Part shown: positions 13,208-43,461 of the stretch, piece after piece
Layout: every line of letters begins with the position of its first letter
How positions within the stretch are numbered: position 1 is the stretch's first letter
Origin: a virus
Reading direction: 5' to 3' (one strand)
DNA length: 45,259 bases
Virus record (IMG/VR): IMGVR_UViG_3300021438_000022
Span: 1 to 45,259 of that record
Program-made: the position numbers and the translations under genes
Notes under the pieces: model-generated
What the model saw: only the letters and a program-made list of their open reading frames with translations
The model's database searches: none
Told to the model about the DNA's origin: nothing

Positions 13208-13233
13208 CCCCCGCCCGCAAGCGGGGGTTTATT
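13208..13233 (+). terminator. Rho-independent terminator
   Basis: CCCCCGC (13208-13214) pairs with GCGGGGG (13221-13227) around a 6-nt loop and is followed by TTTATT. It ends the plus-strand operon and overlaps the stop codon region of the facing giant gene, so it may help terminate both. Confidence 0.8.
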
Positions 13234-16200
13234 GTACCAAATTAGACAATGGCGCGAACGTGGGTTTTTTCTCAGGCACAACCCTGTTTAATACGCCCCT
13301 TGTTTTGACCATGACATTTTCAATTCTTGCATCAATTGAATCTAACTTTTGCTTGCGATCAACTGCCGACAATTTGTCATTTGCCCTAATTGATGAGGCT
13401 TGTTTGCGTAATTCAGCAATGGCCTTATCGGACTTTTCCATTGCCCCAACCGGACCCTGTTTCCATACAATTTTGCCATTTTCTATTGAAGCGCCCAGCT
13501 CTTTGCCAAGCGCTCTAAAATCAGCACGAACCTTTTCGTCCTTTGGATTAAGCTCCAATTGACGCTTTGCGTTTCGCAACTCATTTACTTTTTTGTCAAC
13601 CTCATCATGCAGTTCATAATAACGGCGACCTTCGCCTCCTCCCGCAGGCGCAAATCCCTTAACAATTGGTATTTTTTCAGCCGGTGTTGGCGTGCCCTCA
13701 ATGCTGTTTTTGGCCCAATTATATAAACCAGAAACAGAACTACCCAATCCACCAGTCATCCATTTTGCAGAATAATCAATCCAGCCGGGGTAAATATCTA
13801 AATTGCCGGGAATGACTTTAGACCCACCCGTTATCTCATTCAAAAATGATGCAATGCTGATTGATGCCTGTGTGTTTGTGGTAAAATACTGTTGAGAGTG
13901 TGGAACACCTTTGTTGTATTCTGTTTCTTTTGGAACGATTGGCGCCTCTGTAGGAAGTGCCTTATTTGAATACATTTCGAAAAATGGATCAACAAGGCTG
14001 GGCATTAACATATTCCAAATTGAGCCACTTCCCAACGGGTTGAAAGCATCAATAGTATTCATCATGACATTGTTTGCTGCCGTCAATGGTTTGACTTGCC
14101 CAGTCAAAACCATAGCCATTTGCTCACCCAAGTAATATGGGATTTTTAGCGCAAACGCCAAAGGAAGGATGCGAATGTAATCTTTTTCATTTGGCCCAGT
14201 TTTTACAACAAAATATCCGCGCCGAATATATTCAGGAATATTTGAATAATTCTTTTTCCATTTATCTGCTGGATCATTGCCTGATACAGCAAGGTTCATA
14301 AGTGTCATAAAGAATCCAAGGGGGACCAAAGACGCATATACCGCGCGCGCACGTTTACCAACAGCATCTTTGCGTGACAGCAGCTCTAGCATTTTTGCAG
14401 ATCCCTGCACGTTTGCATTATAGAACATATAAAGGCCGTTGATGGCAGATCCCCAAGCCCCACGCCGATTGAAGTTTACGGTTGATTCCCGTGCAAGCGA
14501 TGATGCCTTTTGATCTGAATACCCAACATCCTTTGCTGCCATAAACACCGCAAGACGGGTGGCGTTTTCTAAAGGTTCAGATATTTTATCTATTGCGCCC
14601 AGCGCTTTTTTAATAACGCCAAGAGTGTTGTCTTTTGCTTTTTGAGGCAAATTGCTCCACGTCAAGGGGTCAACACCGCCAACAAGGCGTTCTATTTCCT
14701 TGGCAATAGTTTCCATTTCCCTAAAGGAATTGTAGCTTATCTTGCCACCAGACAAACGCCACTGATCGTAAATACCAAGCTGTTGCGGTGTCGCTGTTCC
14801 CCCAGCAACACGAATAGCCGTCGCCATAGCGGCTGGATAATTTGCCAAGAATTTTTTTGCCATTTCAGGGCTTTCATTGAAAGCGCTAAATAACGCTTCT
14901 TGAAAGTCGCGCGTGACGTTTGGAATAAAAAACGCTGGGTTGCGTGTTGTTGCTAACTGCGAAAAGAACCTACCGACCTCAGCAATCTTTGCCATATATG
15001 GCCCAAGTTGGGATGCGCCCAATTTGCGATATGCTTGAGCCAAAGGAACATTTTTCAATATAATGAAGTTTGTCCTGCCCCCAACTTTTGCAACAACTAT
15101 GTTGTCGCCATAGCGTTGCGACATATCGGGAACATACTTAACAAGACCATCTTCACCAATGATGCGTTTTTTAGGCAATTTATTGACTTGCCACAACTCA
15201 TCATTAGGATTTGCTTGCGCCAACCGCAACAATGCCTTTGCCGCCCTATTTTTTTCAACTCGATAAATACCTTCTTCGGCCTGCATAATAGCATTTGCAA
15301 GCGGACTACCCGAAATAGATCCACGGCCTAACGCTGTCTTAAATTCTTTACCCGATACCGTTATGCCACGCCCAATATGCGGAATAAGATTATCCTCTTC
15401 AGCATCCCGTTCGGCAAAGCCACGCAAAGGAACGTAGTATTTGTAATTTTCGTAGCTGTCGTATGTAGCCTGATCTATCAAGCCGCTATCAAGACGCCGT
15501 TTATTGTCAGCCCTAATAATATCATAAACCATTTGGGCGGCTTTTTCTAATGTGGCTTCTTTGCCAGCATCACGAAATTCTTGAATTAAATCATCAGCCG
15601 TTTTATTCAAAATGCCCGAACCACCATCATTGCCAAACCGACTTGGGTCGCGCTTTGCCATTTCGGCATTACGTTCAGGCGCGTGTTTTGCCAACAAAAA
15701 CAAATCCAAATCGTCTTTAGAAATGTTGTTTTCTTTCATAAAGTCAATGATCGGCTTAGCTTCTTTATCGCGGAAAGTTTCTAGTCTTTCAGAAATTCGC
15801 CCCGGCAAAAGGCTTTGCGCCATATATGCGTTAAGAGTATCTGGCAACGGACTACCACGGCCAAGCTCAATCTCCTGTTGAACCGAACGGAGATATGTAA
15901 ATTCATCTTGCAGCAACCGTGTTGCTTCAGCAATTTTTCCATATGCTGGCGCCACAAAGGTAGCTGTTGGTTTTTTTGCAGCCTTTACTTTCATGCCATT
16001 GGCTTGATTCATGGCATTTATTTTATTAATTGCCTCATTTCCAAATGAAAATGCACGTTCCTGCTGCAATTGTTTGCCAATTTGATTGGCCTCATTCATT
16101 GCGCGGCGAGCAATTTCCCCAACGTATTGGTTGCGCATAAGGCTTTCGATATTTTTGTACCCGTTACCAGCAAGCCAGTTGCGGACCCCCTCGATAAATT

Positions 16201-19200
16201 TAAGAACTTTATCAAACATACGGCGCATAGCGCCGGGGAGATGTATTTGGTTGGGATTAACGCCAGCATCTGTATACAGCCCATAAAGCTCATTTGAGTA
16301 AGCCAAAAGCTCATGCAGTGGCATTTGCTGTATTGATTCTTGTGTGTATCCATTAGACAACAAGAAATTGCGCAAACGCGGTGCGGCAATTTCCCTCATC
16401 CTAATTTCTTGCGGGGTAAATGCACCCGCCATGTCTAGAACGTGATCTGCCTCGTGATACGTTGTCGCGGTTGTTGAGAGCGGGTCAAGCAAACTAGAAA
16501 CAACCATACGGATTGCGCCTTGCTCACGCGAAGTAATACCAGCTGGAGCGCGTAAATCGCCAACCAAGCCAGACTTACGAGCCTCTTCAACCGTAACGTC
16601 ATTTTCTGTTAATGGACGCATTGAAACTTCAGCAAGATTGCCCACAACACGTTGCGCAATATCATATACATTTTTGGTTATATTTTCGACTTGTGATACG
16701 CCGCGACGCACCGTTGCCGGTGTAAGGTTCATTGAGGCAGAGCGAACGGCTTCATTGCTAGTTTCAAATCGAGCGCCAAGATCCAAAAGACGCTGCACCG
16801 CCTCTTTAATATTAGATGAATATACCTTTGTGGACATATTTGACCGGCCTGAGCTGGTAAATCCACCGGTGATTTGCATCATTTTGTTATCTAAATAATA
16901 CTTTCCACCCTTGTCTTTGGCGCGGGGTGTTATGATGGTATATTCTTTAAAGCGAGGATTATACTGAAGCATCAAATCATTATTTGTGCTTGTTACCGTA
17001 TTGGTTGGCGATGTTGTCAGAGCAACAATCATTTCTTCTGGCGTCTTGATGACGGCCTTAGATTGCCCAACGGCTTCATCCATTGTTTTAATGCGAGACG
17101 GCAACATAATGCCTTGCCGCACAACTCCATCAGCGTCAGTGAAATTGATGATCTGGCCCTTACCAGACAGAGCATCAAAACCTGAAAGCAGGTTGCCCGT
17201 GGCAATAATTCGCTTTTCCCGCATACCGGATGTTGCAAGATCATCAAAGCTCTTAATCAATGACTCTGGCGTATCAGCCCATCCAACTCGTGCAATGCTT
17301 GTTTTGCTATCGCTTTCACCGCCTATTTGAATTTGCGACAATGGGATATTCATAATTGGATTGGAAGAAGGATAGGCGATGGCTGCTTCCCAGCTACCAA
17401 GGGCCAATGGATTTTTGCTTTTGCCTTTTTTTGCAAAATTAATAACTAATCCTTGGTATGTTTCACCATTCTGCAATTGCAACCGGATACGACGTCCGGG
17501 AATTAAAATGTCCGCTGCATCTTCAAACGCACTGCGCACCAAGCCCAGCCGTGACGATTCTTTTTCTAAATTTTCTGGAGCTGTATCATCCAAAATGGCC
17601 CGCTCATATGAACGAAATTCTTCTTTTGCGGCTTTAACCGTTGCAAGATGAGATTGTTCAAACGCAGTTTGCATTTGCTCAAGCGCCCGTATTGGATTGT
17701 CTCCTGCGGCTATTTCAGACTTTTGAGCAGCAGCAACGCGATCAATTGCGTCAGATGCGCTGATCGGCTTGCCCTGTTTTTTAATGTCATAAACCGTGTA
17801 ATTGACAGGCTCTGTGAAGGGGCTAGAGCTGTCGCCCTCTTTGACAACCCGCGTCTCGATTGGCCTTGCGTCAAGATCCAAATTCTTCGCCTCAAGAGTA
17901 TTGATACCCTGCGCTTCTAATTGGGCCATCATATCGCTATAACGCGCTTCTAATTCGGAATACACCTCCTCTTGCTGGCTAAGTGGCAGCAATGGGATGC
18001 GTCCGGTCAATTTCCGCATCAAATCCGCATTGTCCGCGCCAAGACCTTCCTTTGGCTCGCTGACTGCAACATCCAGTGCAATTTGCAAATCTGGGTTATC
18101 AATAAGAAACTGACCAGCCACATGATCGCCGTACTCATTGATAAAGTCTGGTACATTTTCCGCCTGCAACGCACCCTTGCGCGAGGCAGTTGTGTTTGCG
18201 CTAAGAGATGCCATTTTCTTTTGAAGAACAGCAGCTGGGCGTTTTTCAGCTGGAATATCTGCAATTAGTTGCGTGTAACGTGGCACAACAACCTGACCTG
18301 TGCGGTGAACGCGGCCAAGCATTTGCATATGCGTGTCGATATTCCCTTCTGGTTGCACAATAATCATATTGCGCGGACGCTGGTCTTTAAATTTCTCACT
18401 AGCATGAAGTGATAAGCCTGTAGCGCCAGCTTGGTTTAGAATAATGGCATCTATAGTTCCATTGTTAAAATCATTGATGGTTTTAATTCTTCCCTTGGCG
18501 CCAGTTTCTGCACTTGAACGGCTTGAAAGAGTCGGCACAGGGCCTGAATAATTAACCGTTGTGCCGCGACCGGTAATTTCTCCAACTTTATAACCTGCCT
18601 TTTCCATTTGATTGCGAATGTAATCAATCGGAGAAATTGGCATACCGCTAAAATCTAAGCTGTCTATATAATTTTGGATGCTTTTATAAAAAGCGGTAAC
18701 TTGCGGTCCAAGCTCTTCATCGGTCAGGTAGTGCCTAACGCTCCCCTTCGTAAATGGCTCACGGATGATAATTGTCCGAGTGCGATCAAGATAACGGTTA
18801 AGCAGATTACCAAAATCTAGATTGATGGGCGAACCAGTAGCAAGACCCTCTTCCTCGGCAACATTATTAAGAAATGACTCCATTGTATTGGCTACCGTAA
18901 AGACGGGCTTTTCACCGTTTTTCAGTGATTCAATGGCTTCTTTTACAGCTGGCTCAACTTTGGACGCCAACAACATTTGGTTAATCAGGTTGTGTAAAAC
19001 AGAAGTAAAGTTCGACGATTCGGCCCCAGCACCACCCGTTGACCGATCTGGGCTTGATCCTTTCGCCTCTGCTTTTAATTCCTCATCCATGCGTTTGGTG
19101 GCAACTTTGATTGCCTTTGAGAATTTTTGAATTTGTGAAATTGCGTTGGAGAAGTTGTCGTATGTTTCTCTATTTACAGGCACAACAGGAGCATCATACC

Positions 19201-22200
19201 GAACACCGGCAAATGATCGTTCACGGCGAATGTACTGGCCAGCCCTTGCAAGCATGGTCGCAACAATCTGTTGCATTGGAACGCCACCTTTTGAGATAGC
19301 CTCTGCCAAAGCATCAGGAGAATCCACCGCCTTACTCATGTCGGTTTTGTAATACAGGTCCATAACATCTGGGCGCTTTGCATACGTTGCCGATGAATAA
19401 AATGTTGCGCTTGAGTTGCCGACAAGATCACGCACATATTGAGCGCGGTTCATGCCCTGTCCTTCAGCGGCATCGGTCGATCCACCGCTGCCACCTGCAT
19501 TGTGACTTTCGTCCAAAATAAGAATTGCGTTAGGGGCAATGGCTTTCAAGAACCGTTGGCGTTCCGTTTCCTTGCCTTTTAACGTCTGCATCTGGCTATA
19601 GGTGGTGAACACCATATCGTAATCACCGATCTTGCCATTTTTTGCCAGCCTATCCAGCAAAGCATTATGAGACTTTGCATCACCTGTCTTAAGATATTTC
19701 CCCGCCTCAATGTCCAAAGGAACATTTCCAGAAGCATTGGTAATCAAAATCTTAGGCTCTTTACCGCTCGTTACCTGATTGATGCCAATATCGTTCATGT
19801 CACGATACATATCGCCGTAAAGATTTGGCTTTTCAGTCACAAAAATTGGAATTTTGTTGTTGTTGATAGCATACCGAATGATAGCTGCGTTAACGCGACC
19901 TTTACCAATACCTGTTTGATCGCCAATAATAAAACCGGCGTTCTTCTCAAAATTGTCAATAGCAAGGCCAATTGCGTCAACTTGTTCAGCAGAGAAATAT
20001 TTGCTCAGGCTGTTAACAGGATAGTTTAGGCGGTCTGCAACATAGTTATCAATGCTGCCATGTTTGTCTTGGATGCGTTGCAAAGCGTCGCTAATTGATT
20101 GCCGCATATTGACGGGAACAAGAGTGCCTAAACCCTGCGTTTTTTCAGATTTGGGCGCATAAGCAACCTGACGCTCTGTTTCCGTTTCCTGTTTTCCTAC
20201 TCTGACTGGGCTGGGAGCAACCAGCTCATCGAGTCGCTCGGACTGCTCCCGCTTAGCGCGTTCTGCAAGTTCTGCTGATTGAGGAGAAGGTATGGGTTGT
20301 TCAATACCACCTTCTTCAGAAACTCCTCGGTCGGATCGAACGCTGGATTCCCCGACAGGAGGCTGTTCGACGACAGCTGGTTTACGATTTGGCTCTTCTC
20401 GTATTCCTGCTGGTCTTGGTTCAGCTGATTGAATTGCTTGCGCAGGTGCTGCGCTAACTGCTCCCGTAACTTCATTTTTCAATTCCCCTTTAACATCATC
20501 CCATGTATTCAAAACCCGTGGCGGCTTGACGGCGGGCAACGGCAACGCGGATTTTCCTTCCCCATCAATAACTAAAACATCAACCGGCCATGCCGCACCT
20601 TGGCGCTCATATAATTTTCCAGCCACGGTAAAATGATCTACGACATTGTAGTTTTTATAGAGCGTCAGAAAAAATTCTCGTTTGGCTTTTGCATTGTAGG
20701 CGTCTGATCTTGCTTTTTCAGTGGTAGCAAGCGGCGATACGCTTCCAATAATGAAAGCGCCACGCCCGTTTTTTTTCATTTTATCAAGAGTGGCAAATGT
20801 AATTGCATGGTCAATTTCGGATGTATTGTATCCGTACTGAATCCAATCCATGTCAAATGACTTAGTGTCACCCTGTTCAGTTTTAACCGTTCCAAATGGC
20901 GGGTTAGCAATAACCACATCGAATTTACCGTCAACAAACGCCGGATCTGATGCGTCTTGTTTTTTAGGCTCAAAACCCAAAGCCTCAAGATTTTCTCTGC
21001 GCACCCGATTAATTTCGTTAACGACTGTTTTCTTTGGGTTGGCTTCCATGACCAAGGCGCCGTTGCCAGCAGTTGGTTCAAGCACCGTTACATCCTTGTT
21101 GATACCAGCAAGGCGTGATGCAACAAATGCCAACGGAAGGGGCGTTGAATATGCTTGGTTTTTAATACTTTCAGAAGTTCTTGTTTCTAGCTTTGGTTGT
21201 TTGTTGTACAAATCTAAAAGCCGGTCATACTTTTCATCGGTTGTAAGATTTTGCCCAACAATCTCCATTGCCTCTTTTACAAGGGCAAGTTCCATACTTT
21301 CTTCAATAAGTTTATTATCTTCAGTGCCAGTCAATTCTTTTGCAATTTTTCTTGCTTCTGCAATTGACTTGAAACCTTCACCTTTTAGCCTTTGCTGGAA
21401 AGCATCGCTTAAAGTCTCAAGGCGGCGAACAGGCTTGTTTTTGTCTGCCTTGTCTTCCTGCTTAACAAGATCCATTAAATCTTGTTGCTTACTGCTTTCA
21501 CCAAATAATCCATCTGGCTCTTTTTGTTCAACTTTAGGCGCAAGAGGTTTTTCAGCGCCACGTTGGGCCTGTTCTGCTTGGCTAATTTTTTCAGCACCGG
21601 GAATTACGAGCTGGGGTTTGCCTTCTGCCCCTTGTTCAACTGAGACTGGGCTAACTGCCTGTTTTTCTTCGCCAGCTCTTTCAGCTTCCTCTTTTTGTTC
21701 GGGTTTTGCTCCTTGTTCGCTAAGCGCTCTACCCTCTGGCCCCATTCCCTGTACTGCTTGACTGTGCCGCGCATTGTCAAATTCCTCTAATAATTTGTCG
21801 TAGTCATCATCTGTATTAAAATCGCTCTTCTGGATAACGCCCGCATCATTATTTTGTTTTTGGACAGCAAGGTGCCATGCGTCTTCTGGATTATGCCCTA
21901 TAGCCATAAAGTCCAACGCATCTTTTACCGATTCATCATCATGAGAAATGGCTTCATCGCGCATAAATTGATAAAGATCTTCACGATCTTTTTCTCGTTG
22001 CGCCAAAAATGCTTCTTTTTCGGCTTTATCAACCTTTTTTTGTGGCGGCGCAACACCCTCTGGGTAGATCCTTCTGGGGCTGCTCAAGTCGCTAAACAAG
22101 CGATCAATTTCGTTTTTCCCTATGGCCTGATCTTTTAGGTCTGGGTAAAAGCCCATTTCGACCAAACGAGTAATCGCATCGTCGGGAGAAATACCATTTT

Positions 22201-24673
22201 TATTATACAGACCCATTGACTCTAATTGTTTAAAATCAGGGTCATTAATGCCGCCCAATTTACGCACAGCAGTAGTTAATGGTGTTTTTTGATATTCACC
22301 TTTTTGTTCTACTTTTTCAGGCGCTGGTGGTTTTGGGTTAATTTTTTCTTGAAGCTCTGCAATGCGCTCAGGCGGCGTGTTTTGCAAAACCTGTTCTGCG
22401 TCCCGCAACGCAGTTGCTGTTATTCTGTTGCCTTCAGCATCAAATGAAGATTTTTTATATGCCTCTAAAAGATTTTTAGCATCCTCAATCTTTTTTAATT
22501 CATCTTGCGCCGCTTTTACTTCTGGAGAAACAATAGGCGCAACTGGTTCTGGTGCAACAATTGGAGCTATTGGTTCAGCTGGTGCAGCGGGTGCCACCTC
22601 CTCTTTTACCTCTGGTTGCTTTTGAGCGCCAACTTCTGCAATTGCCTGCAAAGGAGGAACGCCCTGTTGAACCAATTGAACGGCAGCTTCTGATGGAGCT
22701 GGTGGGGAAATTTCATTTTGTTCGCTTGCAGACAGCGCTATTGGCTTTGCTCCAGCCTCTTTGGCGTCTTTTAACTCGGCAGCAACTTCCGCTGGCGACA
22801 TTTCAAGAATGTCAGCAACAGAATAGCCAGCACCCTTTAGCGTTTCAGCATCCTCCTTGCTAACGGTCGGAGCAGCAGGAGGCGGGGGAGTAACCGCCCC
22901 CTGCGCCTCGACGGCTTCCCTCTGTGGAGTGGGGGAGACAGGAGAGGCCGGAGCTTGCTGCTGTGCTTGCGCAACAAAAGGAGATTGCAAATTAAATGGC
23001 GCGATTGTAGGCGGCATCATTTGCGGTGGCAATTGTTGTTTGCCAGCGTTTCTAAACGCTTCATAGCCCATATGGGCGCCACCAACCGTACCAGAGAATA
23101 GCGCACCAGATAAAGACCCGACAAGCATGTTGTTGGCGACGTCTTTGGTAAGTGTTGTATCTGGGTCATTTAAAAGGTGCATTTGCACAGCATTTTGCAA
23201 AAGCTGTTGCAAGCCTTCCTGCACACCCTCTTCACCTGACGAGGCAGCAACCATCCCAAGCCAACGAGTTAAACCGCCGCCGCTCGCATGTTCTAGGCGC
23301 TCAAAAAATCGGCTGATAGGCAATGCCTCTGTGGCGCCAATTCCAAGACCAAGTGTAAATGTTGTCCATTTGCGCCAATTTTGATTTACACTTGGGTCTT
23401 CCTGTGCGCGTTGTTCTGCTGCTTGCCACATTTGGGCGGCTTGCGGCAATGCGCCACCCACGGCAGTTGCGACCGGCAAAGAAAGCTGAAAACCCTTTGT
23501 CAAACCTGCGCCTGTTAATGCAAATGCGGCAGTGGATGCAACCCCTTGCACAACCTGCTGACCAAGATCTTCTGCTCGTGCTGCATCGGCATTAAATTGA
23601 GTGCGAATGGCCTTTTTCATATCAGCATCTTGTTTGCTGATAGCATTTTGAATTTCTAGCTTAGGATCAATTTTATCTCCATAAACTAAATATTCCATCA
23701 AACTAACTGGTGACGTCGCAATACGAGCAACAGCCGTTGCTGTATCTGCGCCCTGTTCTGCAATCGCTTGTGGGAACCTTTGAACCGCAGCATTAAATCC
23801 AGATTGTGTAATTGCTTGTTGCGCCCATTTAATTTTATCTGCGCGAGCTTTATCAATTTCACCCTGCGCATCTTCAATCGTGCGCCCAATTACACGCTCA
23901 TGTGCATCAAGATCTGTTTTTTTAATCTTCCCAGCTGCATACTGGTCGCGGTATCGTTGAAGGCGATCTTCTAGCGCCTTCTTATTTTCCGTCATTTTTT
24001 GAAGCGTTTCATCGTAGTTTTGATTTGCTTCTGCCCTACGTTCAGCCGTTTCGGCGGCCATAACGCGGCCCGGCTCTTCTTGTGTGGGGGCAAGTTTGCC
24101 AGATGTACGGAAAGGAAGATCTTCTTTTGCCTCACCCTCAAGCATTTGCATGACGGGTACGCCAGCTGCTTTGGCGCGAGCAATTTCTTCTTTTGTTGGC
24201 TGGTAAGGATACTCTTCCCCAGTTTCTGGGTTTTTGCTTCCCTTTATTTGACCTATTGTTGATTCGCCAGCCCCCAGCAAGGGATTAACAATAATTGGCT
24301 GTTGTACCCCGTTGGCCTGCTGTTGATATGCGGATGGGCGCGGAGGTGGTAACGGCGCATTGGTGCGCTGCCCCTGCAATGGACGAACCTGCTCCATAAC
24401 TCTTTGAAACGGTATTTGCTGGCGCTGGTAATTTTGTTCTTGCTCTGTAAGCTCAGACCGCATAGGCGCAGGAATCTGCGGTTCTGTTTTTGGCTGTGCC
24501 GCAAGTTCTTCTTTGGTCGGCACATAAGGCTCAGCAATACTTAAAGGGTCGCTAAATTTATATTGTTGCTCTTGCGGCTGCCTTGGCTCGTTAACGGGCA
24601 CAAGTGTAAATTTCGACGTTGGAGCAGCCGATTGTTTGGTATCTTCGACAGGAACCAAAGTAAAACTAGCCAT
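13229..24673 (-). CDS. Giant polyvalent protein: methylase, helicase, HExxH, LPD38
   Basis: A 3814-residue protein. In order: a Gln/Pro-rich start with FTLVPV twice (4-9, 22-27); a helical, Ala/Gly-rich region (about 390-550); low-complexity linkers; an N6-adenine methylase with 'LEPTAGNGA' (near 1197) and NPPF (1257); a strawberry-notch-like SF2 helicase with 'GDQTGIGKGR' (near 1584), 'DESHNAGG' (1721) and 'GRVHRTGQ' (2120); HEADH (2740-2744), a zincin-like HExxH; an LPD38-like region with 'TRNPAFFIPNVTRDF' (near 3242); and a coiled-coil tail. Similar DarB-type proteins are packaged and injected. It is last in the late operon, as expected for a virion cargo protein. The start has only a weak Shine-Dalgarno sequence. 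Confidence 0.88.
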   Translation of the reverse strand: MASFTLVPVEDTKQSAAPTSKFTLVPVNEPRQPQEQQYKFSDPLSIAEPYVPTKEELAAQPKTEPQIPAPMRSELTEQEQNYQRQQIPFQRVMEQVRPLQGQRTNAPLPPPRPSAYQQQANGVQQPIIVNPLLGAGESTIGQIKGSKNPETGEEYPYQPTKEEIARAKAAGVPVMQMLEGEAKEDLPFRTSGKLAPTQEEPGRVMAAETAERRAEANQNYDETLQKMTENKKALEDRLQRYRDQYAAGKIKKTDLDAHERVIGRTIEDAQGEIDKARADKIKWAQQAITQSGFNAAVQRFPQAIAEQGADTATAVARIATSPVSLMEYLVYGDKIDPKLEIQNAISKQDADMKKAIRTQFNADAARAEDLGQQVVQGVASTAAFALTGAGLTKGFQLSLPVATAVGGALPQAAQMWQAAEQRAQEDPSVNQNWRKWTTFTLGLGIGATEALPISRFFERLEHASGGGLTRWLGMVAASSGEEGVQEGLQQLLQNAVQMHLLNDPDTTLTKDVANNMLVGSLSGALFSGTVGGAHMGYEAFRNAGKQQLPPQMMPPTIAPFNLQSPFVAQAQQQAPASPVSPTPQREAVEAQGAVTPPPPAAPTVSKEDAETLKGAGYSVADILEMSPAEVAAELKDAKEAGAKPIALSASEQNEISPPAPSEAAVQLVQQGVPPLQAIAEVGAQKQPEVKEEVAPAAPAEPIAPIVAPEPVAPIVSPEVKAAQDELKKIEDAKNLLEAYKKSSFDAEGNRITATALRDAEQVLQNTPPERIAELQEKINPKPPAPEKVEQKGEYQKTPLTTAVRKLGGINDPDFKQLESMGLYNKNGISPDDAITRLVEMGFYPDLKDQAIGKNEIDRLFSDLSSPRRIYPEGVAPPQKKVDKAEKEAFLAQREKDREDLYQFMRDEAISHDDESVKDALDFMAIGHNPEDAWHLAVQKQNNDAGVIQKSDFNTDDDYDKLLEEFDNARHSQAVQGMGPEGRALSEQGAKPEQKEEAERAGEEKQAVSPVSVEQGAEGKPQLVIPGAEKISQAEQAQRGAEKPLAPKVEQKEPDGLFGESSKQQDLMDLVKQEDKADKNKPVRRLETLSDAFQQRLKGEGFKSIAEARKIAKELTGTEDNKLIEESMELALVKEAMEIVGQNLTTDEKYDRLLDLYNKQPKLETRTSESIKNQAYSTPLPLAFVASRLAGINKDVTVLEPTAGNGALVMEANPKKTVVNEINRVRRENLEALGFEPKKQDASDPAFVDGKFDVVIANPPFGTVKTEQGDTKSFDMDWIQYGYNTSEIDHAITFATLDKMKKNGRGAFIIGSVSPLATTEKARSDAYNAKAKREFFLTLYKNYNVVDHFTVAGKLYERQGAAWPVDVLVIDGEGKSALPLPAVKPPRVLNTWDDVKGELKNEVTGAVSAAPAQAIQSAEPRPAGIREEPNRKPAVVEQPPVGESSVRSDRGVSEEGGIEQPIPSPQSAELAERAKREQSERLDELVAPSPVRVGKQETETERQVAYAPKSEKTQGLGTLVPVNMRQSISDALQRIQDKHGSIDNYVADRLNYPVNSLSKYFSAEQVDAIGLAIDNFEKNAGFIIGDQTGIGKGRVNAAIIRYAINNNKIPIFVTEKPNLYGDMYRDMNDIGINQVTSGKEPKILITNASGNVPLDIEAGKYLKTGDAKSHNALLDRLAKNGKIGDYDMVFTTYSQMQTLKGKETERQRFLKAIAPNAILILDESHNAGGSGGSTDAAEGQGMNRAQYVRDLVGNSSATFYSSATYAKRPDVMDLYYKTDMSKAVDSPDALAEAISKGGVPMQQIVATMLARAGQYIRRERSFAGVRYDAPVVPVNRETYDNFSNAISQIQKFSKAIKVATKRMDEELKAEAKGSSPDRSTGGAGAESSNFTSVLHNLINQMLLASKVEPAVKEAIESLKNGEKPVFTVANTMESFLNNVAEEEGLATGSPINLDFGNLLNRYLDRTRTIIIREPFTKGSVRHYLTDEELGPQVTAFYKSIQNYIDSLDFSGMPISPIDYIRNQMEKAGYKVGEITGRGTTVNYSGPVPTLSSRSSAETGAKGRIKTINDFNNGTIDAIILNQAGATGLSLHASEKFKDQRPRNMIIVQPEGNIDTHMQMLGRVHRTGQVVVPRYTQLIADIPAEKRPAAVLQKKMASLSANTTASRKGALQAENVPDFINEYGDHVAGQFLIDNPDLQIALDVAVSEPKEGLGADNADLMRKLTGRIPLLPLSQQEEVYSELEARYSDMMAQLEAQGINTLEAKNLDLDARPIETRVVKEGDSSSPFTEPVNYTVYDIKKQGKPISASDAIDRVAAAQKSEIAAGDNPIRALEQMQTAFEQSHLATVKAAKEEFRSYERAILDDTAPENLEKESSRLGLVRSAFEDAADILIPGRRIRLQLQNGETYQGLVINFAKKGKSKNPLALGSWEAAIAYPSSNPIMNIPLSQIQIGGESDSKTSIARVGWADTPESLIKSFDDLATSGMREKRIIATGNLLSGFDALSGKGQIINFTDADGVVRQGIMLPSRIKTMDEAVGQSKAVIKTPEEMIVALTTSPTNTVTSTNNDLMLQYNPRFKEYTIITPRAKDKGGKYYLDNKMMQITGGFTSSGRSNMSTKVYSSNIKEAVQRLLDLGARFETSNEAVRSASMNLTPATVRRGVSQVENITKNVYDIAQRVVGNLAEVSMRPLTENDVTVEEARKSGLVGDLRAPAGITSREQGAIRMVVSSLLDPLSTTATTYHEADHVLDMAGAFTPQEIRMREIAAPRLRNFLLSNGYTQESIQQMPLHELLAYSNELYGLYTDAGVNPNQIHLPGAMRRMFDKVLKFIEGVRNWLAGNGYKNIESLMRNQYVGEIARRAMNEANQIGKQLQQERAFSFGNEAINKINAMNQANGMKVKAAKKPTATFVAPAYGKIAEATRLLQDEFTYLRSVQQEIELGRGSPLPDTLNAYMAQSLLPGRISERLETFRDKEAKPIIDFMKENNISKDDLDLFLLAKHAPERNAEMAKRDPSRFGNDGGSGILNKTADDLIQEFRDAGKEATLEKAAQMVYDIIRADNKRRLDSGLIDQATYDSYENYKYYVPLRGFAERDAEEDNLIPHIGRGITVSGKEFKTALGRGSISGSPLANAIMQAEEGIYRVEKNRAAKALLRLAQANPNDELWQVNKLPKKRIIGEDGLVKYVPDMSQRYGDNIVVAKVGGRTNFIILKNVPLAQAYRKLGASQLGPYMAKIAEVGRFFSQLATTRNPAFFIPNVTRDFQEALFSAFNESPEMAKKFLANYPAAMATAIRVAGGTATPQQLGIYDQWRLSGGKISYNSFREMETIAKEIERLVGGVDPLTWSNLPQKAKDNTLGVIKKALGAIDKISEPLENATRLAVFMAAKDVGYSDQKASSLARESTVNFNRRGAWGSAINGLYMFYNANVQGSAKMLELLSRKDAVGKRARAVYASLVPLGFFMTLMNLAVSGNDPADKWKKNYSNIPEYIRRGYFVVKTGPNEKDYIRILPLAFALKIPYYLGEQMAMVLTGQVKPLTAANNVMMNTIDAFNPLGSGSIWNMLMPSLVDPFFEMYSNKALPTEAPIVPKETEYNKGVPHSQQYFTTNTQASISIASFLNEITGGSKVIPGNLDIYPGWIDYSAKWMTGGLGSSVSGLYNWAKNSIEGTPTPAEKIPIVKGFAPAGGGEGRRYYELHDEVDKKVNELRNAKRQLELNPKDEKVRADFRALGKELGASIENGKIVWKQGPVGAMEKSDKAIAELRKQASSIRANDKLSAVDRKQKLDSIDARIENVMVKTRGVLNRVVPEKKPTFAPLSNLVQ

Positions 24674-24682: not shown

Positions 24683-25351
24683 TCATTGATTAATTTTAAT
24701 TTCGTTTTTTTGGCCGTCTTTTACAACAAACCATTTTCCGTTTTCCTGATAGGCATTAGGAAACTCTTTTTTGATCTGTTGTTCAATTGGTATTTGTGGT
24801 TGTGTCGCACTTGCCGGCCTTGCGTTTGATTTTTGCGCGCCAATAGTTGATAATTTACTTTCGCGCTCCGCCTCAATTGCATCTTTTTGCCTTTTGGCCT
24901 CTGCAATATCTTGCTCGGAGGCAAGTGGATTTTGAATAATACTATCTTGATTTTTAACTAACCGATCATACCTGCGATTTATTAAATCTTCATTGCGAAG
25001 ATCCCTGTAAACCGACAGAGAACTATCTTCATCTCCTTTTTGAGCCTTATAAGCATCGAGCATTGCTTTGTACTGCAATTGTTTTAAGTTGTTAATTTTG
25101 TCTTGCGCTGACAATTGTTGTTGTTTTATTTGCGACAATGGCCCCTGCAACTGATTAGCTGCATTTGATATACTTTCTCCAAAACTACCGGTGCGGGTAG
25201 GAGCAAGAAAACCCTGTGCTAAAGCAAGCCAAGTTGGGTCAATTTGATTTAAAACACCACCTTGAGGCTTTAATAGTTGTTGCTGTTGCGCAATTTGATT
25301 GGCAATTTCTTGCTGATAGTCAGTTGTTGCCTTGTCCAAATCAATTGGCAT
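24683..25351 (-). CDS. Putative internal virion protein, Gln-rich
   Basis: A 222-residue helical protein. Gln- and Asn-rich helices (EIANQIAQQQQLL; 'LSQIKQQQLSAQDKINNLK') make up most of it, with a short C-terminal domain 'EFPNAYQENGKWFVVKDGQ' that looks like a small beta hairpin. No enzyme motif. Placed between a putative ejection protein and the giant polyvalent protein, and overlapping its upstream neighbour by one base, it is probably an internal or ejection protein. Confidence 0.55.
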   Translation of the reverse strand: MPIDLDKATTDYQQEIANQIAQQQQLLKPQGGVLNQIDPTWLALAQGFLAPTRTGSFGESISNAANQLQGPLSQIKQQQLSAQDKINNLKQLQYKAMLDAYKAQKGDEDSSLSVYRDLRNEDLINRRYDRLVKNQDSIIQNPLASEQDIAEAKRQKDAIEAERESKLSTIGAQKSNARPASATQPQIPIEQQIKKEFPNAYQENGKWFVVKDGQKNEIKINQ

Positions 25352-26406
25352 TATTTCCTCCGTCCACGGCTAGAGCGGCGGTTTTTGTTTCGAACTTTTA
25401 CATGTCCGCCCTCGGCAAATTTAACGCCAGAAAGCGCATTATAAAGGGACGCAGCACCGGCAATTTGTGAAAGCGGAGATGCTGAATAAGTGTTACCCGT
25501 TCCGGTCGTTGTAGTATTTTGAGATGTGGAATATGGCAAACCACGGACAAGGCTGTTAAGCATAGACAGTTGTTGAGCTGGATAACCGCGCTGTTCAAGA
25601 AAATCTTGATAGGCCAAGTCCAGATTTTTCTGACCCTGTTGCTGCTGCGTTTGGCCAACAGCTTCCAGAGCAGCAAGGTCTTTAAGGTTAACGCCCTGTC
25701 CGACGTTGGCCAAATTACCCAACTGACCAGCTGCTGACAATTGATTTGTTGCTGTTTGTGATGCAAGGTTGCCAGCCACCTGCCCAAGACCTGCTTGACG
25801 TGCCAAGTCTTGTTGAGCCGCTGTCATGGCCTGACCATAGCCCTGATTCAGCGCTTGGTTTTGCGCGGCCAAAGTGCTTTCTTGTGTGTCTCGCAGCGCT
25901 TTTCCAACTGCTGCTTGTTGCCCAGTTGAGCCATATTGACCGGATCTAACAAAGTTAGCCATAATTCCCGGCGCTAAATTCTCGGTCAAATTACGAGTAC
26001 CAAGCTCACCGATCCTATTTACAACATCCTGTGTATATGGATTCATGTAGTTGTTAATCACGCCCGGAACAGTTTGGTTTGCTTCGTTTAAATATGGTTG
26101 AGCTGCCGCGCTTGCATTGTTGTTTGCAACTGCATTTTGAGCGAGGTTGATTCCTGTTTGGACAGGTTGATTAAACGCGCCTACAGATTTGGATGTAAGA
26201 TCAAAGGCTGCGGTTTGTTCAGGAGAAAAGTCGGCAAGGCGTGGTTGTGTATAAGCCTGATACGGCTCCGCAGCAACAGCATTAGCACGGTTAAGCAAGC
26301 CGAGAGTGTAGTCGGACATAAACTGCGGGATGCCGGTAACGGTTGACCCATAAGTCGTCGTTGCCGGTGGGGGTGATCCCTGAAAAAGAAAATCAAGAAC
26401 GCCCAT
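25351..26406 (-). CDS. Putative ejection/DNA-transfer protein
   Basis: A 351-residue protein starting MGVLDFLFQGSPPPATTTYG, then long Ala/Gln/Asn helices ('GIMANFVRSGQYGSTGQQAA', 'GQAMTAAQQDLARQAGLGQ') and a final 'FAEGGHVKVRNKNRRSSRGR' basic tail. Low hydrophobicity, Gly/Ala helices and late position resemble pore-forming ejection proteins of podoviruses. FAEGG is a variant of a motif seen in three other virion-associated proteins here. Exact role unproven. Confidence 0.6.
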   Translation of the reverse strand: MGVLDFLFQGSPPPATTTYGSTVTGIPQFMSDYTLGLLNRANAVAAEPYQAYTQPRLADFSPEQTAAFDLTSKSVGAFNQPVQTGINLAQNAVANNNASAAAQPYLNEANQTVPGVINNYMNPYTQDVVNRIGELGTRNLTENLAPGIMANFVRSGQYGSTGQQAAVGKALRDTQESTLAAQNQALNQGYGQAMTAAQQDLARQAGLGQVAGNLASQTATNQLSAAGQLGNLANVGQGVNLKDLAALEAVGQTQQQQGQKNLDLAYQDFLEQRGYPAQQLSMLNSLVRGLPYSTSQNTTTTGTGNTYSASPLSQIAGAASLYNALSGVKFAEGGHVKVRNKNRRSSRGRRK

Positions 26407-26407: not shown

Positions 26408-27520
26408 TTATGCTCCCTTTATGTACGAAAGAGGTGATTTGGCATTTGGTGCAAATTTGCCCTGCGCCAAAGCTCCGCCCTTTTGCTTGCGAATCTCGCG
26501 CCGCATTTCATCCAGTTTTCTGGCTCCAGCGTCAGATGAACCATCGCCCAGCATAGAAACTGTTTGTGCGTCCATAACATACTCGCCATCAGATAGCGCA
26601 GCTTTGATGCTATCAGATGTTCCCGTGCCGCCGCCGCGCACATACCGCCCTTGTGCGGCTGTTACAACGCCGCTTGTTGGCAATTGGTTGTTGTTAAAGA
26701 ATTGTGATGCCGGTCCGTAACCATAACGCTTTGTAACGGTTGGATTGGTTTGCGTCCGGTTAAATTCAACATTCGACAATTTGGTTTTTTGATTACTATC
26801 AACCGCCTGTGGCGCAACTGGCTGGGCAGCAGGCGCCTTTGATCCAGATAATGCCGCACCCAGCAAAAGCAACGGTGCGGCCTTCATCAAAGAGCCGCCG
26901 CCGAGCGAACCTAAAATGCCGCCACTTGAAGAACCTGCTCCGGCAGCGTTACCACCCGTTACGCCAGTCGCATCAGCAATGCTTGCATCCCTAACGCCAC
27001 CAGCAGTCGTTGCAGCGTTTGAAGCGGCGGTCCCAAGGCTTGTGCCACCAGTCAAAGAGCCAAGCGCATTAAGTGCATACGGCGTTGCTGCGCCCAAAGC
27101 GCCATACGTCAAAGCCCCTTTGGCGCCACCTGTTAAGCCACCAAGGCCCGCACCCAGCAATCCAGAACCGAGGGCTTGTGAGGCGGTTGTGCCAAGTCCA
27201 AGGCCAAGAGCATCGCTAACAGCAGAACCAGCGCTGCCCAAAAGATCGCCGCCCAGAAGGTTAGCGCCAACAGTGACAACGGGAGCAACCCAATCGCTAA
27301 ACCAGCCGAACTGCGGAATACCTGTTTTGGGGTTAATGCGACCGGGGCCAAATTTTTGTTTGATAAATTCATATTCTTCTGGGTTAACGTGAATAAGCAC
27401 CGTATCACGGTTATCAACCGCTTGACGCACATCCTCAGCCTTTTGTGCAAGGCCGCCTTTAGCATACCCATGCCGATTGGGTGGGGTAAAATCTATGCTA
27501 ATAGGAATGGTGCCGTCCAT
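26408..27520 (-). CDS. Virion protein with glycine-zipper membrane region
   Basis: A 370-residue protein. After 'GYAKGGLAQKAEDVRQAV' comes a globular N-terminal part (to about 75), then a long Gly/Ala/Leu stretch (about 80-225; 'LGSGLLGAGLGGLTGGAKGA') suited to membrane insertion or a glycine zipper, then 'TSDSIKAALSDGEYVMDAQT' and a basic C-terminus. The DGEYVM element is common in marine and freshwater phage tail proteins. AAGGAGA before ATG 27520 decides the start over 27535. Probably part of the ejection apparatus. Confidence 0.6.
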   Translation of the reverse strand: MDGTIPISIDFTPPNRHGYAKGGLAQKAEDVRQAVDNRDTVLIHVNPEEYEFIKQKFGPGRINPKTGIPQFGWFSDWVAPVVTVGANLLGGDLLGSAGSAVSDALGLGLGTTASQALGSGLLGAGLGGLTGGAKGALTYGALGAATPYALNALGSLTGGTSLGTAASNAATTAGGVRDASIADATGVTGGNAAGAGSSSGGILGSLGGGSLMKAAPLLLLGAALSGSKAPAAQPVAPQAVDSNQKTKLSNVEFNRTQTNPTVTKRYGYGPASQFFNNNQLPTSGVVTAAQGRYVRGGGTGTSDSIKAALSDGEYVMDAQTVSMLGDGSSDAGARKLDEMRREIRKQKGGALAQGKFAPNAKSPLSYIKGA

Positions 27521-27531
27521 AACGGTCTCCT

Positions 27532-27765
27532 TCAATTCGTCGCTTGCAAGAATCGTTCAGCCCATTCACGCCAATCATCAAATTGGTCTGGATGAGGAGC
27601 GAGTCCCGTCCATTGATTATTAATCAGTATAACAGCATTTGCCCATTCTTTCCAATGGGCAGGATCATCTAATTTTTCGGTAAACCCACCATACGGCAAA
27701 AGAAATGGAACCATCTTGTCGGTCCACTCCATAACGTCCATGCCGATGGGGTTAATTCCGATCAT
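27532..27765 (-). CDS. Small Trp-rich virion-region protein
   Basis: A 77-residue protein with 'MEWTDKMVPFLLPYGG', 'PAHWKEWANAVILI' and 'DQFDDWREWAERFLQ': a repeated W..WA pattern in acidic, amphipathic helices. Coupled upstream by ATGA to the tail protein. No established family; likely a structural accessory or chaperone for its neighbours, by position only. Confidence 0.6.
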   Translation of the reverse strand: MIGINPIGMDVMEWTDKMVPFLLPYGGFTEKLDDPAHWKEWANAVILINNQWTGLAPHPDQFDDWREWAERFLQATN

Positions 27766-32874: not shown

Positions 32875-33048
32875 TCATGCAGCATGTTCATCTGGGTCTT
32901 GAGGCGCGGGAGCAGCAACCTTCAACTGATCTTCCGCATCCTTTTTGATCTTCGCGATCAAATCAGCAACTTCCGCAAATGGGCGTTGACCCAAAGATGC
33001 AAGAACATAGTTTGCTTCATCAACAGTCAGTGTCAGTGTGATAGTCAT
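32875..33048 (-). CDS. Small phage protein following the fibres
   Basis: A 57-residue protein starting MTITLTLTVDEANYVLASLG, a strand followed by 'PFAEVADLIAKIKKDAEDQL', a helix, and a Pro/Ala/Asp-rich tail. Tiny strand-helix proteins of this pattern are common in late operons of tailed phages, role unknown. Start overlaps the last fibre stop (TAATG), and that fibre's final codons carry the GGAG. Confidence 0.65.
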   Translation of the reverse strand: MTITLTLTVDEANYVLASLGQRPFAEVADLIAKIKKDAEDQLKVAAPAPQDPDEHAA

Positions 33049-34235
33049 TATTTACTCTCCAGTTTTGCTATACGAGTTTCAAGGGCATCAATTTTTGCGA
33101 CTGCTTCTTGTAGGGCAGCAACAAGGTGTGGAATTATTTTCCCGGGATCAACACCTTGTGGTTTAATTTTTCCTTCCTCGTCAACAGCATCCTTTTCGCC
33201 GATAACAGCAAGAGGAATTATTGCTTGTAGTTCGTGAGCAATAAATCCTTCGCCTTTTTCTTTATTAGCGACCCAATCATAAGTTACAGGTTTAAGCGCA
33301 GCAATAGTTGCGAGGCCAGTTGTAAGCGGCTGTACGTTTTCTTTAAGACGGTAATCTGAAGATGTGGCGTATGTAGTTGCACCAGATGTATTAGTTATAG
33401 CACCGGATGCTACGCCGTTATAAGTAAAATATGCTGCGTAAGCAGTACCAGTTGTACCTGTATAGTCTGACCTATAACCAATTGAATTTCCGCCACCACC
33501 GCTAAAAATTGCAGAATATGCACTATTAACAGCCCCGCAATTGCTAGTAATTTTACCGGAATAAGATGCCGTTGTCGTCCCCACCAGCAGATTGCCGGAG
33601 CCGTCAATCCGAGCGCGTTCATAAATAGAACCGCCGCCAGCCCCAGTTCGGAATAAAATATTGCCGCCAGCCCCACCAGTATACCGATTTGTAATGGCAA
33701 ATGAATTGCTGGAAGTTTCTTCTGATAAAGCAAGCATTTTGTAAGTATCAGAACCGCCAACAAAAACATAATCCGTAACCGCTGTGCTACTGCCAGCAAA
33801 AGCAGATGTCAGTTTCCCAGCAGCACTTGTCGTCCCCACGCACAGATTGCCGGAGGAGTCGATACGGGCGCGTTCGGCTCCAGCAGATTGAAAAATCATG
33901 TTGGAATATGGATTAAGCGTAATGTTACTTCCACTTTGAAGCGAAGCAATAGTGAAGTTAGCACTAGTATTGTAAATTTGTGTGCTAATGGTTCCGCCTT
34001 GGCAAAGATTTATAAGACCGCCATTGGTTGCGTTGTTAATTTGCAGAACCGTATAACCAGTAGCCGCTGTCGGCGATGTCGTCCCAATCCCCACATTGCC
34101 GCCAAATGACGAATTACCCGTCCCAGAGACAGTCAAGTTATTCCCAACCGTCACATTCCCGCTGCTATCAAGAGCGAGGTTGTTTGTGGCGGAGGCTGAG
34201 TCTTTTACGACCGATGCTTGTAATGTGCCGCTCAT
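33048..34235 (-). CDS. Tail fibre 3 with S74 intramolecular chaperone
   Basis: A 395-residue fibre. The stalk is Gly/Ser/Thr-rich and repeats 'ARIDSSGNLCVGTT'/'ARIDGSGNLLVGTT' and 'GNVGIGTTSP'. Near residue 290 'SSDYRLKENVQPL' begins the C-terminal peptidase-S74/endosialidase-type chaperone, which trimerises the fibre and cuts itself off at the Ser. 'GEGFIAHELQAIIP' and a leucine-zipper-like end complete it. This is the last of three tandem paralogues; stalks differ more than the chaperones. Confidence 0.82.
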   Translation of the reverse strand: MSGTLQASVVKDSASATNNLALDSSGNVTVGNNLTVSGTGNSSFGGNVGIGTTSPTAATGYTVLQINNATNGGLINLCQGGTISTQIYNTSANFTIASLQSGSNITLNPYSNMIFQSAGAERARIDSSGNLCVGTTSAAGKLTSAFAGSSTAVTDYVFVGGSDTYKMLALSEETSSNSFAITNRYTGGAGGNILFRTGAGGGSIYERARIDGSGNLLVGTTTASYSGKITSNCGAVNSAYSAIFSGGGGNSIGYRSDYTGTTGTAYAAYFTYNGVASGAITNTSGATTYATSSDYRLKENVQPLTTGLATIAALKPVTYDWVANKEKGEGFIAHELQAIIPLAVIGEKDAVDEEGKIKPQGVDPGKIIPHLVAALQEAVAKIDALETRIAKLESK

Positions 34236-34237
34236 GA

Positions 34238-35500
34238 TTATGCTCCAACCTTCGCTTTAAGGGCGGTGACTTCTGCGGATAGTTCTTGAATGGCAGCAAC
34301 AAGATGAACAACAATTTTGCTGTAGTCTACGCCTTGCGGTTTTATGCTTCCATCTTCATTAACTGCGTCTTTTTCTCCCGTTACAGCGAGAGGAATGACG
34401 TCTTGAAGTTCATGTGCGACAAAACCTTCACCTTTTTCATTAACGCCAATCCAGTCGTAAGTTACCGGCTTTAACGCGCCAATGATCGTCAACCCATTTG
34501 TCATCGGTGTGATGTTTTCTTTTAACCGATGGTCTGATGCAGTTACATAACTGACAGTTGTCGCTCCAGTTTGAGAAATAAAACCAGCACTACCATTGCT
34601 ACTGTTTGTAAATTGCATAAAATATGTGACAGTAGCGGATGTATTTTTTATATTTATACCATAAGTGCTACCGCCATTAGCAATCATACTTAAATATGAA
34701 CCACCAGTTGGAAATAAAGATGATGTTCCAACGTATAAGTAGCCATTGGAGTCAATACGCATGGCTTCAGCGCTGTATGTTGCAAAACGAATTGTTCCGG
34801 CGTAAGCACTCCCACTTCTACTGGTCATAGATATGCCGGACACATAACCTGCACTAGAGCCAGTAGAAATTTCTACTGAAGCGTCATCAAAATAAGTATG
34901 TATGGCATAAAGACTGGTCGCCCCGTATGTTCCCATACGGCCTGTAGTCAAATTGCCAGCTATGTTTAAAGTGTTTCCGGATGTTGCTAATGAACCTCCG
35001 GATATGCTTAACCTGCTTGGTGGCGATGTCGTCCCAATCCCTACGTTGCCGGAAGTATCAATACGCATACGTTCTGCGTTATTAGTAGCAAATAAAAGCG
35101 GGTGATTGGTGGATGTGTAAAGAACGCCCCCAACAGAACCAAAAACTGTGCCAAGGCCATCGGAAAGCAAATTCACACCAACAGTGTTGTTGTTTGATAA
35201 AATAGTTAAAAGAGCATTTGAATTAGTTGCTGTTGATAAATTCCGAATAGCAATTTGCGAACTTGATGAACCTGTATTTCTTACAACATCAATAGCTACA
35301 GCAGGGCTTGTTGTCCCAATCCCCACATTCTGAGACGCATCAATATACAACGCATTTGTGCCAGCGGTGGCTACAGCGTAGGTTGTGCCAGTAGGAAAAT
35401 ACGCGCCAGTGTTGGAATTGGTCGTATTGCTTTCCGCAGGTGCAGATGCCGAACCAAGAGGGTTTTGTATACCCGTTGTGCCGTTCAGGACAATTGTCAT
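34238..35500 (-). CDS. Tail fibre 2 with S74 intramolecular chaperone
   Basis: A 420-residue fibre. It starts MTIVLNGTTGIQNPLGS, followed by 'SQNVGIGTTSPAVAID', 'ERMRIDTSGNVGIGTTSP' and related repeats (stalk), and 'SDHRLKENITPMTNGLT' near 319 beginning the self-cleaving chaperone. The chaperone DNA is nearly identical to that of fibre 1 over long stretches. The last codons before the stop, AAGGTTGGAG, provide the ribosome-binding site of the next fibre gene. Confidence 0.82.
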   Translation of the reverse strand: MTIVLNGTTGIQNPLGSASAPAESNTTNSNTGAYFPTGTTYAVATAGTNALYIDASQNVGIGTTSPAVAIDVVRNTGSSSSQIAIRNLSTATNSNALLTILSNNNTVGVNLLSDGLGTVFGSVGGVLYTSTNHPLLFATNNAERMRIDTSGNVGIGTTSPPSRLSISGGSLATSGNTLNIAGNLTTGRMGTYGATSLYAIHTYFDDASVEISTGSSAGYVSGISMTSRSGSAYAGTIRFATYSAEAMRIDSNGYLYVGTSSLFPTGGSYLSMIANGGSTYGINIKNTSATVTYFMQFTNSSNGSAGFISQTGATTVSYVTASDHRLKENITPMTNGLTIIGALKPVTYDWIGVNEKGEGFVAHELQDVIPLAVTGEKDAVNEDGSIKPQGVDYSKIVVHLVAAIQELSAEVTALKAKVGA

Positions 35501-35503
35501 GTC

Positions 35504-36472
35504 TTATACTCCAACCTTGGCCTTTAATGCGGCAATGTCTGCGGCTTGTGCGTCTATTTTGGCAGCTGCTTCTTGAAGGGCAGCAACAAGATGAACAACG
35601 ATTTTGCTGTAGTCTACGCCCTGCGGTTTTATGCTACCATCTTCGTTTACAGCATCTTTTATACCCGTAACTGCGGCAGGGATAATCTCTTGCAATTCGT
35701 GAGCAATAAAACCTTCGCCTTTTTCGTTAAGACCTATCCAGTCGTATGTTACAGGTTTTAACGCGCCAATGATCGTCAACCCATTCGTCATAGGTTGCAC
35801 ATTTTCTTTTAAACGGTAATCAGAAGATGTTGCATAAGTCGTTGCCGCAGCTTGTACATAAATTGATCCGACTTGCGTATTTGACGGATTACGAAAATCA
35901 AGTGCGTTAGTGTTATTTACATCAGATTTATAATAAATGCCTGAATTATAGCTACCGCCGCAAGTTAACGCCATTTTATAACCTGCAACAGTGGTGCTAG
36001 TCCCCACCAGCAGATTGCCGGAGGAGTCAATACGCATACGCTCATTGGTGCCGTTGTTACGAAAAACAATTGCACCCGCATCACACCAATCAAAATATAG
36101 ATTGTTGTCAGAAAACCCAAACAAATGGAACCCAGCGGTAGAACCATTATAAGTTCCCGCATAATTTGGCATTGCTTGTTGTGTGGAATATGAAACTCCG
36201 TTTACCGTCAACTTCATGCCAGAAACAGGCGATGCCGTCCCAATCCCCACATTCTGCGATGTATCAATCGTCATTGCAGTCGTGTTATTTGACTGCAAAG
36301 TTAGTGCATTGCCTGTGCCGGAGTTAACCGTCTGGATTGTCAACGCGCCAGAGCCATTGTCAGCAAGCAGGTTTGTCCCGCTTGTAGGCAGCGTCAGCGT
36401 ATTATTGCCAGCAGTCGCCGCCGCTTGGATTTGGGTGTAACCAGACGTTGACCCATTTAATTTAACTGGCAT
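35504..36472 (-). CDS. Tail fibre 1 with S74 intramolecular chaperone
   Basis: A 322-residue fibre, the first and shortest of the three. 'MPVKLNGSTSGYTQIQAAAT' is a common phage fibre start, followed by 'LPTSGTNLLADNGSGALTI', 'ERMRIDSSGNLLVGTST' and, near 216, 'SSDYRLKENVQPMTNGL', start of the chaperone. ATG 36472 is chosen over 36487 because GGAG lies nine bases upstream and it overlaps the previous stop (TAATG). Confidence 0.8.
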   Translation of the reverse strand: MPVKLNGSTSGYTQIQAAATAGNNTLTLPTSGTNLLADNGSGALTIQTVNSGTGNALTLQSNNTTAMTIDTSQNVGIGTASPVSGMKLTVNGVSYSTQQAMPNYAGTYNGSTAGFHLFGFSDNNLYFDWCDAGAIVFRNNGTNERMRIDSSGNLLVGTSTTVAGYKMALTCGGSYNSGIYYKSDVNNTNALDFRNPSNTQVGSIYVQAAATTYATSSDYRLKENVQPMTNGLTIIGALKPVTYDWIGLNEKGEGFIAHELQEIIPAAVTGIKDAVNEDGSIKPQGVDYSKIVVHLVAALQEAAAKIDAQAADIAALKAKVGV

Positions 36473-36681
36473 TACACCACACTCCACGTTGAACCGGCGG
36501 GGATAGTAATCGTCACACCGGAATTAACTGTAATTGGGCCAGCAGTCATCGCATTGTTGCCGGTCGTAATCGTGTAATCAACCGTAACAGTCTGACCATT
36601 CTCATAAAAGATCTGGTCATTGCTGCCACCAACCGGCTGCGGTGGGTTTGGTAATACGTTGAGATAACTGTATGTGGACAT
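36472..36681 (-). CDS. Small fibre-associated protein
   Basis: A 69-residue beta protein: 'NPPQPVGGSNDQIFYENGQT' and 'GPITVNSGVTITIPAGSTWS' look like a short beta-helix or fibre tip fragment, comparable to single repeats in phage fibres. It overlaps the first S74 fibre gene by one base and may be a collar or adaptor for the fibres. Function inferred from position and composition. Confidence 0.6.
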   Translation of the reverse strand: MSTYSYLNVLPNPPQPVGGSNDQIFYENGQTVTVDYTITTGNNAMTAGPITVNSGVTITIPAGSTWSVV

Positions 36682-41895: not shown

Positions 41896-41898
41896 GGC

Positions 41899-42731: not shown

Positions 42732-42732
42732 G

Positions 42733-42993: not shown

Positions 42994-43004
42994 GTTAGAT
43001 CCTA

Positions 43005-43418: not shown

Positions 43419-43439
43419 TCTATCCTCCTATTAAAAGAA

Positions 43440-43457
43440 GGGGGGAATAATCCCCCC
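43440..43457 (-). terminator. Terminator-like hairpin between structural genes
   Basis: On the minus strand GGGGGGA (43457-43451) pairs with TCCCCCC (43446-43440), a 7-bp stem with a 4-nt loop, followed by TTCTTTTAA. It could partly stop or attenuate late transcription after the capsid-proximal genes, lowering expression of those downstream. Confidence 0.6.
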
Positions 43458-43461
43458 GTTA

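Follow-up and report, generated by a model that had tools for sequence, protein, structure and literature searches.

A predicted phage polyvalent protein of 3,814 residues joins a Strawberry-notch-type methylase-helicase core to a shared C-terminal module and a duplicated N-terminal peptide

The Dar protection of phage P1 works in cis only. DarB is a head protein of P1, and its first 30 residues are enough to direct a reporter to the capsid (PMC9024508). For the DarB-like gp69 of the Lessievirus JC1, a protein of 4515 aa, 51 unique peptides were recovered from CsCl virions (PMC9144972). Giant proteins of this kind were described as the polyvalent class by Iyer et al. 2017, who considered their injection probable, presented a model of in-cis methylation and met helicases similar to Strawberry-notch (Sno) only 'in a few instances' (PMC5512222). 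The larger question is how giant proteins are chosen to enter the head and how chains of 400 kDa pass through the narrow portal. Here we describe two candidate sorting or delivery signals. One is a C-terminal module that is conserved while its payloads are interchangeable, the other an N-terminal peptide that is duplicated and varies by phage.

The window analysed is an entire IMG/VR virus record of 45,259 bases. One gene fills a quarter of this phage fragment, as the preliminary description had it, and we can add that the open reading frame (13229-24673, 3814 aa) lies on the minus strand, starts with ATG and is complete, with no interruption; the coordinates of all protein regions given below are on the same strand. 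The low-complexity linkers that had been mentioned are located at residues of about 650-760 and 1400-1460. NCBIfam gave no match, and a sequence search with the whole protein found no relative among solved structures. The three families expected from the preliminary description (N6-methylase, SF2 helicase and LPD) were all matched by Pfam, and together with a zincin motif they bring disparate domains into one large polypeptide, encoded beside virion and late genes (an ejection gene and structural and tail-fibre genes on the same strand). A methylase-helicase dyad with zincin and LPD38 next to a DNA-ejection gene agrees with the published class (PMC5512222), and judging from sequence the assignment as a phage polyvalent protein, already made in the preliminary description, is well supported. 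The class itself is known; what is new is the Sno core on a shared C-terminal module, combined with a duplicated N-terminal peptide.

The first part of the core is a gamma-class N6-adenine methylase-like domain, predicted at residues of about 1097-1400 (20474-21385). Pfam places Eco57I/N6_Mtase at residues 1226-1310 (1.5e-5), and motifs X (STP, 1176), I (EPTAGNG, 1199) and IV (NPPF, 1257, of the form NPP[YF]) follow each other in order and are kept in 72 sequences. The position of NPPF is exactly the one given for it before. The second part is a putative Sno SF2 helicase at residues 1495-2182 (18128-20191). Both Strawberry-notch-type helicase models of Pfam exceeded their curated cut-offs, AAA_34 at residues 1559-1839 (7.7e-22, 78.0 bits vs 27) and Helicase_C_4 at residues 2028-2182 (4.4e-22, 79.5 bits vs 30.5); the strawberry-notch-like helicase previously put at 1584-2120 is thereby placed at 1559-2182. 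Its motifs are complete and conserved, namely GDQTGIGKGR (1584), DESH (1721), SSATYAKRP (1760) and MQMLGRVHRTGQ (2116). A conserved extension at residues 2183-2640 (16754-18127) accompanies the core in all 80 relatives.

These relatives come from a scan of IMG/VR with the 3814-aa protein, which returned 80 loci. Residues 1080-2640, comprising methylase, helicase and extension, were recognised in every one of them, some of the records being cut, and the core-bearing proteins reach up to 5,632 aa. A second scan with the core returned nearly identical contigs again and hence few independent cases. Only 4 of 50,697 phage records matched the core; the Sno-type methylase-helicase is rare in isolated phages and common among environmental ones.

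The alignment of 72 cores shows near-invariant catalytic motifs, and the methylase-helicase core is under strong constraint. Such conservation matters for the idea that the protein is mainly a structural component of the ejection channel, with methylase and helicase as passengers of minor or lost function. The helical N-proximal segment, the largely helical C-terminal module and the ejection-protein neighbours, all described below, would suit this role. However, few positions of the core are as conserved as the catalytic motifs, while the flanks are variable, and we regard a mainly structural protein as quite unlikely.

In PADLOC, the mad2 model of the MADS defence matches the methylase (residues 1093-1355, window 20609-21397, minus strand, 3.2e-12). 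This resemblance could point to a methylase-helicase that acts on host DNA, attacking or marking it, or that keeps out rival phages, instead of protecting the DNA of its own phage. Yet the match spans the methylase only, as would be the case for any member of the methylase family, and no other MADS component showed up within the protein itself. We find such a role improbable and keep to the reading in which the dyad protects the phage's own DNA.

A predicted zincin-like metallopeptidase follows at residues 2690-2880 (16034-16606). The zincin-like site of the preliminary description was readily found as HEADH at residue 2740 (H2740-E-A-D-H2744) with E2788 as the third ligand, which is the pattern of the polyvalent-type zincins, HExxH with a third-ligand Glu in the next helix. 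The domain was recovered in 7 of the IMG/VR loci, and both histidines and the downstream Glu are invariant in 7/7 aligned rows (the window and six relatives).

The LPD38 domain had been expected at about residue 3242. It is present, but Pfam (PF18857) locates it ~230 residues later, at residues 3474-3671 (13661-14254; 5.8e-31, 108.5 bits vs a cut-off of 27). Residue 3242 and its surroundings lie in a conserved C-terminal module of greater length (residues 2900-3790, 13304-15976), of which LPD38 is a part. Of the 71 core proteins whose end is intact, 49 have this module of ~890 residues, and in all 49 it ends 7-30 residues from the C-terminus. It is also C-terminal in proteins of Burkholderia phage CSP3, Ruegeria phage 45A6, Vibrio phage D66 and Bacteroides phage BS-TP4 (E 3e-209 to 7e-114), and tblastn of residues 2660-3814 matched 142 phage records. 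The megaprotein is split in loci L045-L047, with the methylase-helicase on a core gene of about 3166 aa and the module on the adjacent downstream gene (1806 aa).

What stands ahead of the module differs: CSP3 has a DarB-type core with SLT and LPD3, 45A6 has GNAT and an order with the helicase first, L031 an L,D-transpeptidase, L018 a PBECR1 RNase with ddrB-ParB, and both L041 and BS-TP4 have InPase. Because proteins of such different payloads, window protein included, have the module in common, it appears to be a conserved carrier on which the payload has been swapped.

Structure prediction had been proposed in the preliminary description. The AlphaFold model of the C-terminal module is mostly helical (mean pLDDT 70, pTM 0.60) and has no solved relative: Foldseek against PDB gave nothing significant (best E 0.15), and the sequence profile of the C-terminus against solved structures remained at chance level (best 0.18). 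Among predicted viral proteins the model had 75 significant matches, many of them annotated as large polyvalent proteins. A search for LPD38 across 397 genomes from the same order as the L082 genome recovered mostly proteins of 1,500-1,850 residues, at loci too short for N-termini.

Regarding the two regions left unassigned before, 390-550 and 800-880, Pfam gives an accepted domain in neither. The first corresponds to a conserved helical N-proximal segment at residues 390-560 (22994-23506) with the invariant pattern G...G...E...E..QE.......N. Relatives of residues 390-550 were found in 9 IMG/VR and genome loci as well as in 45A6 and D66, and in these two phages the segment is similarly N-proximal. 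The predicted fold of residues 245-575 is all helical with low confidence, and since its mean pLDDT is 51 the model is too weak for a fold search. With this model as a guide, the segment is probably not an enzyme and would more likely belong to the delivery apparatus than act as an effector. The suggestion that effector domains may be hidden in these regions thus loses ground for 390-550, which looks structural, albeit at low confidence. The second region, residues 795-900 (21974-22291) with the GGI...ISPDDAI pattern, yielded no relatives in any of our searches. The only Pfam trace in 800-880 is a UBA hit below threshold at 832-843, and single-sequence searches with residues 250-650, 650-1080 and 780-1010 in phage and viral collections returned no relatives.

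The extreme N-terminus has a feature of its own. The protein starts with MA-SFTLVPVEDTKQ-SAAPTS-KFTLVPVNEPRQ, i.e. with one peptide in two copies. Self-alignment delimits copy 1 at residues 2-14 (ASFTLVPVEDTKQ, 24632-24670) and copy 2 at residues 20-32 (SKFTLVPVNEPRQ, 24578-24616), with a score of 39 vs a shuffle mean of 23.5 (p=0.010). Many relatives have duplicated N-terminal peptides of their own which are mutually unrelated, such as KLVPVDFDPF in L002, KFWE(D/N)DP in L003 and GMFDEFL in L012, and further NPFAKY in L014 and GFE(I/L)I in L038. The N-terminus encoded at L083:9269-9500 contains two different peptides, LF(A/D)DLP and GMY(Q/E)NGQ, each of them twice.

The duplication in the relatives was first spotted by eye and then tested on the same set, in which 23 of 43 dereplicated N-termini reached p<0.05 against shuffles and 17 had the smallest possible p. 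A z above 3 was obtained for 21/42 proteins longer than 1500 aa vs 7/198 shorter genes from the same loci. In a further small set, four genome loci gave z of 7.5, 11.6, 5.5 and 2.9 and three more viral loci 1.5, 2.9 and 1.9. The pattern generalises, with z>3 in 3/7 of this small independent sample. In half of the relatives no duplication is detectable, and CSP3, D66 and 45A6 are without one. We met no description of such a duplication in the literature searched, where one may still exist.

In the window the two copies use different codons at 6/7 shared residues, with 1 the same vs 2.8 expected if codons were independent, and over 26 repeats the codons differ at 110 of 195 identical residues. 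With such differences, the majority of the copies did not arise by recent duplication, and selection probably maintains the sequence of the peptide. We propose that the duplicated peptide serves as a phage-specific virion-loading tag. It was sought in the other window proteins and not found, so we see no sign of a tag common to cargo proteins. Alternatively, the duplication may be no tag at all, and instead a short-lived product of slippage or a by-product of biased composition. Codons in L084 are identical at 7/7 shared residues, as slippage would leave them, Ala/Pro-rich tracts lie behind some scores (CSP3, L062), and 20 of the 43 N-termini missed p<0.05. However, the shuffles were made for each sequence and so control for composition, the codon differences speak against slippage, and few of the other genes at the same loci show any duplication. 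We hold such a by-product to be possible but somewhat doubtful, and retain the tag as our proposal.

The gene directly upstream (24683-25351, minus strand, 222 aa) has no PHROG match, and its relatives were found in L002 and L003 only. Next to it on the same strand is a member of a DNA ejection protein family (25351-26406; phrog_4287, 3.2e-19) with relatives in 24 related loci, and structural and tail-fibre genes follow. Three consecutive tail-fibre-like genes at 33048-36487 (minus strand) have the same C-terminal family matches, which suggests a tandem duplication of receptor-binding genes. The motif [FYIKM]A[EKQ]GG occurs 6 times in proteins of the virion region (25351-26406, 26408-27535, 41398-41895 and 41899-42579, minus strand), and shuffles of 25 window proteins gave a mean of 0.22 and at most 2 for this pattern, which was picked post hoc. 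We recognised neither a terminase nor a portal or major capsid gene in the genes that were scanned (with window 40343-45259 noted), and the genome in the record is therefore probably incomplete. Related loci in bacterial assemblies come from MAGs labelled Alsobacter, Rhodospirillaceae, Rhizobiales and Rhodobacteraceae, with one Moraniibacteriota, and an alphaproteobacterial host is plausible for the window phage.

The location of the gene also bears on whether the protein travels in the virion or acts only in the infected cell, where it would methylate progeny DNA or remodel late complexes. Methylase-helicase couples occur outside polyvalent proteins too (PMC5512222), and we infer the packaging of the window protein. 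On the other hand, the gene lies within a virion/ejection block, and the C-terminal module is common with a Lessievirus protein whose JC1 counterpart is virion-associated, although our comparison was made with CSP3 and the step from JC1 to the module rests on the two phages sharing a genus. An exclusively intracellular protein seems unlikely to us, and virion carriage is the reading that we follow below.

The explanation that we consider likely for all of these features jointly is an injected antirestriction protein, carried in the virion, with a C-terminal carrier and an N-terminal loading tag. The protein would be a late product, made along with the ejection proteins; it would be packaged into the head and enter by injection with the DNA. 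In the cell, the Sno-type helicase would track along the incoming duplex and the N6-adenine methylase would modify it, which would shield the duplex against restriction by the host. The zincin may cleave the chain and free parts of it before or after entry. The C-terminal module of ~890 residues would act as a carrier that phages re-use for a variety of payloads, and the N-terminal duplication as a loading tag specific to each phage. We tentatively extend this to a two-ended delivery chassis, in which the N-terminal peptide would load the protein into the head of its own phage, the C-terminal module would take it along the ejection path, and anything in between, be it a Sno or DarB methylase-helicase, GNAT, L,D-transpeptidase, RNase or pyrophosphatase, would be delivered into the cell.

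Among the known systems, P1 DarB is similar in that an adenine methylase is fused to a helicase of the SWI2/SNF2 clade in a virion-carried antirestriction protein. DarB differs in having neither the C-terminal module nor the N-terminal duplication; its signal for the capsid does not consist of a repeat, and the two cores are not detectably homologous. The core profile matched neither P1 DarB nor the CSP3 protein, and phmmer with DarB as the query found CSP3 (1.2e-55) but not the window protein. DarB was therefore rejected as the parent family of the core, and of the DarB-like character claimed in the preliminary description the architecture stands and the homology does not. The GXGU motif that LPD36 has ahead of the methylase was found by a narrow pattern search at residue 78 of P1 DarB and neither in the window protein nor in CSP3, so that a negative by this pattern weighs little, and Pfam gave no LPD36 hit in the window protein.

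The CSP3 protein (WBF05226.1; Bcep22-like, Lessievirus) shares the C-terminal module (5.3e-168), the HExxH motif and the place after virion genes, whereas its methylase-helicase is homologous to that of DarB, an SLT transglycosylase and LPD3 are added, and its N-terminus has no clear repeat. Gp3 of BS-TP4 (5391 aa) shares the Sno core (2.9e-300), the C-terminal module (6.7e-114) and a duplicated N-terminal peptide (p=0.005); it differs by additional ddrB-ParB and InPase domains, and HExxH was not found in it. With the polyvalent proteins of Iyer et al. the window protein has in common the dyad of methylase and SF2 helicase, the zincin and LPD38 in one giant protein near virion genes. The Sno type is rare in their collection, whereas here it is the type found in about 80 environmental relatives.
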